Assembly (NCBI RefSeq): GCF_014696065.1
Contig: NZ_JACJPL010000015.1
Location: forward strand, 124,001-188,000
Direction: 5' to 3'
Source: Leptolyngbya sp. FACHB-261
GTDB lineage: Bacteria > Cyanobacteriota > Cyanobacteriia > FACHB-261
Length of the DNA: 64,000 nt
How positions within the stretch are numbered: position 1 is the first letter of the stretch; every line of letters starts with the position of its first letter. A program made the position numbers and the translations under genes. Under the pieces are notes generated by a model. That model was given only the letters and a program-made list of their open reading frames with translations, was not told the origin of the DNA and ran no database searches. Positions 19,081 through 19,598 of the stretch are shown here, one piece after another.

Positions 19081-19107
19081 ACGCTTAACTTACTGCGTAA
19101 GTTAAGC
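19081..19107 (-). terminator. hairpin terminator of HLIP gene
   Basis: A perfect 12-bp inverted repeat (cgcttaacttac / gtaagttaagcg) with a 3-nt loop begins nine bases after the HLIP stop codon. The T-run that follows is short, so termination may be partial. Confidence 0.65.
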
Positions 19108-19115
19108 GCAGTGAC

Positions 19116-19598
19116 TTATGCCAAGTGCAGCAGGTCGCGGACCACGCTGTAACCAGCCAAATCCCACAGGAGGTAAGCAACGAAACCGATCATTGCGAAA
19201 CGGCCATTCCAAAGCTCTTGCTGACAGTTCCAACCCAAAATCCAGGCGTTACGGCTGTGGGCAGGATCCAAGGGGTCAACAGCGGTTTCAGCATTAGGGG
19301 TCATGCTGGGGATGATGAAGCCAAGCGCACCCAACAATACGACAACAGCCAGCACCAAGGAGCTAGGAATAGCTTGGGCATTGCCGGTCAGTTGCAGGAT
19401 GTCACGGGCGACGCTGTAGCCTGCGAAGTCCCACAGCAGGTAGGCCGTGAAGCCCAGCATGGCAAAACGGCTGTTCCAGATCTCGGCTTGGGGGGTCCAA
19501 CCAAAGCGAACGGCATTGCGGTCGTAGGTGGTTGTCAGTTGATCAGCGTTGCTGATTGCGGGAGAAGTTTTAGGTTGAGTTGGAGATTTAGTAGCCAT
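19116..19598 (-). CDS. double HLIP-type chlorophyll-binding protein with three predicted helices
   Basis: 160 residues from ATG 19598 (MATKSPTQPK). It contains two copies of the HLIP/LHC chlorophyll-binding motif: FGWTPQAEIWNSRFAMLGF (Glu39, Asn42, Arg44) and LGWNCQQELWNGRFAMIGF (Glu128, Asn131, Arg133), each at the start of a hydrophobic helix. A third, unrelated helix (about 79-97) lies between them. The predicted order, motif helix - plain helix - motif helix, is that of the eukaryotic LHC/ELIP proteins. HLIPs bind chlorophyll and carotenoid in thylakoid membranes, protect photosystem II intermediates and are induced by high light. The two halves are similar, suggesting tandem duplication of a one-helix HLIP. 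A terminator-like hairpin follows. Confidence 0.85.
   Translation of the reverse strand: MATKSPTQPKTSPAISNADQLTTTYDRNAVRFGWTPQAEIWNSRFAMLGFTAYLLWDFAGYSVARDILQLTGNAQAIPSSLVLAVVVLLGALGFIIPSMTPNAETAVDPLDPAHSRNAWILGWNCQQELWNGRFAMIGFVAYLLWDLAGYSVVRDLLHLA

Follow-up and report, generated by a model that had tools for sequence, protein, structure and literature searches.

The window, by which we mean the whole 64,000-nucleotide stretch of DNA analyzed here, carries on its minus strand a gene for a three-helix HLIP fusion (19116..19598), as judged from ORF, motif, Pfam and hydrophobicity evidence. The reading frame extends from an ATG at 19598 to a TAA at 19116-19118 and specifies a product of 160 aa; the strand was assigned here, since the sequence-only reading of this locus had named none. 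The gene is single, with a HAD-type phosphatase on one side and an unrelated 137-aa ORF on the other, and lies deep within a 533-kb contig of a 6.95-Mb genome in 36 contigs. By our interpretation of the ORFs, the window also contains apcE and an atp operon.

The protein contains two complete ExxNxR motifs, E39/N42/R44 and E128/N131/R133, exactly where the sequence-only reading had placed them, and all ligand residues are intact. Each motif forms the start of a hydrophobic HLIP-type helix. Motif and hydrophobicity locate the first chlorophyll-binding helix at residues 39-63 (EIWNSRFAMLGFTAYLLWDFAGYSV; 19410..19484, minus strand), a region whose conservation was seen in an alignment with about 190 HLIPs, and the second at residues 128-152 (ELWNGRFAMIGFVAYLLWDLAGYSV; 19143..19217, minus strand). 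Kyte-Doolittle analysis gave hydrophobic peaks at residues 45-63, 81-99 and 135-153, the strongest (2.63) being that at 81-99. This plain segment (LVLAVVVLLGALGFIIPSM; 19302..19358, minus strand) is the most hydrophobic part of the protein, lacks common chlorophyll-ligand side chains and lies between the motifs, in agreement with the earlier description of two motif helices flanking a plain one. A junction and stromal loop (residues 99-128; 19215..19304, minus strand) follows, as defined by alignment with a separate second gene whose start aligns near M99. In the same genome this separate gene (C27g2, described below) has AGAGGAACTGGGAC upstream as its ribosome-binding sequence, whereas none was found upstream of the internal Met99 in the fusion gene; therefore, one polypeptide is expected.

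The Pfam profile PF00504 (Chloroa_b-bind) matches the fusion with 50 bits (E 6.3e-13), and the match is one stretch in which residues 19-143 correspond to profile positions 16-158 of 162. The score is well above the cut-off of 22.3 over nearly the full profile and therefore is not due to chance; with two motifs, it places the protein in the extended LHC superfamily (PF00504). As a control, ordinary tandem HLIP pairs were artificially translated across their stops and scored 45-46 bits against the same profile, so that the two motif helices account for most of the score of the fusion. The Pfam score thus proves the two motif helices, and alone is no proof of a middle helix.

The existence of the middle helix is supported by its hydrophobicity, by a homologous second helix in the paralogue C27g1 and by the AlphaFold helix prediction. 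Two AlphaFold runs, one with the single sequence and one with an alignment that contained tandem HLIP pairs translated across their stop codons, each returned three helices, with mean pLDDT of 59 and 61 and pTM of 0.31 and 0.32. That alignment has intergenic DNA in its middle columns, which so carry no information on the plain helix. The chain has the motif, plain, motif order of LHC/ELIP architecture, with a helix prediction of low confidence. It was proposed earlier that the two motif helices share one orientation; this holds if the plain helix spans the membrane, as its hydrophobicity indicates; the distribution of charges gives no clear answer on topology. The residues for a crossed Glu-Arg pair between helices 1 and 3 are present (AlphaFold pTM 0.32). 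A Foldseek search with the low-confidence model gave no PDB match, and with models of this quality the helix packing therefore stays predicted only.

Besides the fusion, nine other places in the same genome encode an HLIP domain, including ordinary HLIPs and a ferrochelatase fusion with a CAB domain. Two of the arrangements are tandems. The C27 tandem consists of a 102-aa HLIP with a plain helix (C27g1), 230 bp of intergenic DNA and a 72-aa one-helix HLIP (C27g2), and the C22 tandem, arranged like the C27 pair, has two one-helix HLIP genes, so that this genome shows 1+1 (C22), 2+1 (C27) and fused three-helix states. C27g1 and C27g2 are colinear with the fusion halves, in the same order: the N-half is identical to C27g1 at 52 of 95 positions, plain helix included in the alignment, and the C-half to C27g2 at 42 of 62. 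A DPLDPxHSRNxW signature within residues 99-128 occurs in the C-half and also in the second gene of each tandem, C27 and C22. The plain helix of the fusion likewise resembles that of C27g1 (AIPxxL...LLxxxG), with 28 of 5000 layout-preserving shuffles scoring as high. The C22 pair (G000:C22:258227-258810; L187:4219-4814) lies downstream of a gene that reads as purT-like from its sequence, and its first HLIP is strongly diverged.

Codon comparison with the paralogues gave dN 0.34 against dS 2.4 for the N-half, and pN 0.20 with a saturated pS of 0.87 for the C-half. The plain helix is less conserved than the HLIP domains (9 of 30 residues identical to C27g1, pN/pS about 0.7). At the level of codons, the HLIP domains are thus under purifying selection, and the constraint on the plain helix is looser. 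The same data bear on the possibility that two genes, or a pseudogene, have been taken for one through an assembly or annotation error or gene decay. We consider this very improbable: the fusion is carried by one assembly only, but the gene sits deep in its contig, the junction retains no trace of intergenic DNA, which rules out a single-base error as the source of the fusion, and few protein changes stand against saturated synonymous sites, with every ligand residue intact. On these sequence features, the fusion is real and unusual, and it is known from one assembly.

Both halves of the fusion have their closest relatives among cyanobacterial HLIPs and fall in the cyanobacterial HLIP clade, with support of 100/100 around WDLAGYSV-type HLIPs, in a domain tree of 52 columns that is mostly unresolved and was built without eukaryotic sequences. 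LHC chains in the PDB match the halves only weakly. Both observations speak against a descent that the fusion would share with eukaryotic LHC/ELIP and not with HLIPs. From its sequence relationships, the fusion most likely originated by joining of a copied two-helix plus one-helix pair; in this process, a duplicate of the pair would have lost the stop codon and the intergenic DNA between the genes. The order may also be reversed, with an older three-helix gene (e.g. an HLIP joined to a plain-helix-HLIP) and the C27 pair produced by fission, which would leave the function unchanged. The 52-column tree is short and so leaves this direction undecided. Fission would accord with the absence of a partner domain after the C27 plain helix and with the one-helix HLIP gene followed by a plain-helix plus HLIP gene in genomes G090 and G028. 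Nevertheless, we regard it as unlikely, as the plain helix of the fusion matches that of C27g1 (about 0.006 of shuffles) and not those of G090 and G028 (0.09-0.32), fission needs a new start, a ribosome-binding site and 230 bp of intergenic DNA, and tandem separate genes are the common state.

Protein relatives were sought among 84,980 species genomes, which yielded 78 loci; two motifs in one ORF were found in none of the 78, and tandem separate HLIP genes were the common state among the loci. The same 388 class genomes were then covered by three scans (protein, two-motif DNA pattern and Pfam profile), which agree in that none turned up a further prokaryotic protein whose chain has two motif helices. 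In the profile scan of these 388 cyanobacterial genomes, 16 places matched at both chlorophyll-binding ends, and only the fusion lacks an internal stop; the other 15 are all broken by stop codons and are tandem genes. The ortholog search suggested by the earlier reading thus returned no orthologous three-helix protein in 388 genomes, a sample that is part of the cyanobacteria and takes in the available genomes from the orders to which G033 and G052 belong. A two-helix protein with a C-terminal plain helix occurred only in the genome of the fusion among the matches listed. The scan of genome contigs was confined to a few peptide patterns. Viral contigs gave five HLIP matches, all of at most 30 codons, and no two-helix form.

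At 33 of the 63 neighboring HLIP pairs across all loci, the second gene is in frame with the first after a short gap, so that only stop codons separate the HLIPs. In Nostocales (L009-L058), near-identical HLIP genes stand in tandem, two to five in a row. The tandem HLIPs closest to the fusion halves (77% and 79% core identity) are those of L115 in G093, a genome taken for Anthocerotibacter-like, where their order is swapped.

The literature describes the cyanobacterial members of this superfamily as HLIPs and ferrochelatase only, two-helix SEPs being absent (Engelken 2010; PMC3020630), and restricts members with two or more chlorophyll-binding helices to eukaryotes (Sturm 2013; PMC3750529), a rule against which the fusion runs. 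Sturm 2013 mentions one two-helix fusion in Synechococcus (Kilian 2008; PMC3750529), and a 2025 paper identifies the Kilian 2008 protein as Psb35 fused with HliA/B (PMC12130749). The earlier statement that cyanobacterial HLIPs are one-helix proteins or ferrochelatase fusions was therefore nearly right, but a two-helix fusion is also known (Kilian 2008, as cited in PMC3750529 and PMC12130749), and two-helix proteins of this general kind were seen here in other genomes. The sequence-only reading would have lost its point had a three-helix form already been well described in cyanobacteria; none appeared in the literature searched, from which subscription journals were mostly missing.

HLIP dimers bind 4-6 chlorophylls and 2 carotenoids and act in quenching, and a stable site requires two ExxNxR helices (PMC8617258). 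HLIPs form homo- or heterodimers (PMC8617258, PMC11449106), and HLIP pairs or heterodimers shield photosystem II assembly intermediates (PMC11449106). The fusion would keep such a pair together in a single polypeptide, with the plain helix turning the second motif helix back into the proper orientation, which is the principle of LHC and ELIP. We consider it likely from the sequence that the fusion is a natural single-chain HLIP pair, a self-paired, pigment-binding quencher within one chain that is convergent with LHC/ELIP. In this model, helix 1 would insert with the N-terminus in the cytoplasm, the plain helix would return and helix 3 would lie parallel to helix 1. Crossed Glu-Arg contacts would then join the two ExxNxR helices within one chain, in the manner of LHC and ELIP, and the pair would take the place of the HLIP dimer that two polypeptides normally build. 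The unit would be expected to carry about 4-6 chlorophyll a plus 2 carotenoids, and by dissipating excitation it would protect chlorophyll-proteins while photosystem II is assembled or repaired under stress.

Alternatively, the protein may have three helices of which the motif helices each pair with other HLIPs, so that it bridges or scaffolds two HLIP dimers. HLIPs usually homo- or heterodimerize (PMC8617258, PMC11449106), and the nine other HLIP places of this genome are possible sources of partners. AlphaFold, moreover, shows no confident intrachain packing. On the other side, an intrachain pair is favored by effective concentration, and the fusion halves resemble adjoining genes, a common arrangement for partners. 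In LHC and ELIP, which have the same layout, the helices pair within the chain. We therefore judge the bridging arrangement quite improbable and retain the self-paired quencher as the preferred model.

Comparison with known systems delimits what is new in this protein. Each half is a full HLIP domain with cores up to 77-79% identical to one-helix HLIP/SCP proteins (HliA-D), but the fusion carries two domains and a plain helix per chain and so departs from the one transmembrane helix per protein of HLIPs with its three hydrophobic helices. With the eukaryotic ELIP/LHC proteins it shares the order of motif, plain and motif helix and a PF00504 span of 16-158; the motif spacing is 89 residues in the fusion against 68 in one Chlamydomonas ELIP (table in PMC9916820). 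It differs from them in being a bacterial gene within the cyanobacterial HLIP clade, with a plain helix without chlorophyll ligands. Eukaryotic two-helix SEP/LIL3 proteins have the layout of C27g1, a motif helix and then a plain helix, but SEPs are reported to be absent from cyanobacteria (PMC3020630), and their sequence link to C27g1 was compared by Pfam only. The ferrochelatase with a CAB domain likewise joins an HLIP helix to another part, although with one motif helix on a soluble enzyme. The Psb35-HLIP fusion of Synechococcus (Kilian 2008) also joins a cyanobacterial HLIP to a second transmembrane helix (PMC3750529, PMC12130749), but has one motif helix only, and its probable examples in the genomes studied here carry the plain helix at the N-terminus.

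How HLIPs gave rise to three-helix LHC proteins is a long-standing question that has so far been argued from eukaryotic sequences. In the Engelken 2010 model, LHC arose from doubling of a two-helix SEP (PMC3020630), whereas the fusion resembles an adjoining pair of two-helix and one-helix genes and suggests another route, namely the joining of such genes. Since both halves lie within the cyanobacterial HLIP clade, the fusion most likely, on sequence grounds, evolved independently and in parallel with LHC/ELIP instead of giving rise to them. Its relevance to LHC origin, claimed earlier, thus holds in the sense of a parallel and not of descent. We lean towards regarding it as the first protein from a bacterium to have the complete transmembrane layout of LHC/ELIP, a plastid-independent, self-paired quencher with the presumed steps 1+1 and 2+1 in the same genome. 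As a bacterial example, it indicates that an LHC-like layout can arise in a cyanobacterium, and it offers a minimal natural LHC-like protein that is comparable with its unfused paralogues.

A 16S gene was not found in the contigs of this genome and ApcE was used in its place. The comparison genomes all belong to the same class and include no close relative. ApcE is 78% identical to that of G024, the nearest, and 55-56% identical to those of G013 and G093, which we take to be Gloeobacterales partly from their grouping with named loci. As ApcE is far from the Gloeobacter-like genomes and nearest to G024, the organism likely belongs to a normal thylakoid lineage. An HLR1 (RpaB)-type high-light box was not found near or upstream of the fusion gene in the window searched, and a sigma-70 promoter scan of the fusion region found none. 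Directly past the stop codon lies a 13-bp hairpin (19081..19109, minus strand; z -3.4), from its sequence a possible transcription end, although the T run behind it is short.

Plain helices also accompany HLIPs elsewhere. In G090 (L199:1711-2019) and G028 (L201:1768-2076), a one-helix HLIP gene precedes a gene for a 102-aa protein of plain helix plus HLIP, by sequence a probable case of the fusion described in Kilian 2008; if joined, the two genes would yield the LHC layout by another route. A relationship between the plain helix of the fusion and the Psb35-type plain helices was considered and rejected, as they are not detectably related (shuffle fractions 0.09-0.32). Finally, two 1.7-Mb genomes of family f2 share conserved 84-aa proteins that combine a plain helix at the N-terminus with an HLIP helix (L213, minus strand; L216:1477-1731, plus strand), and two-helix HLIPs may be common in such genomes.
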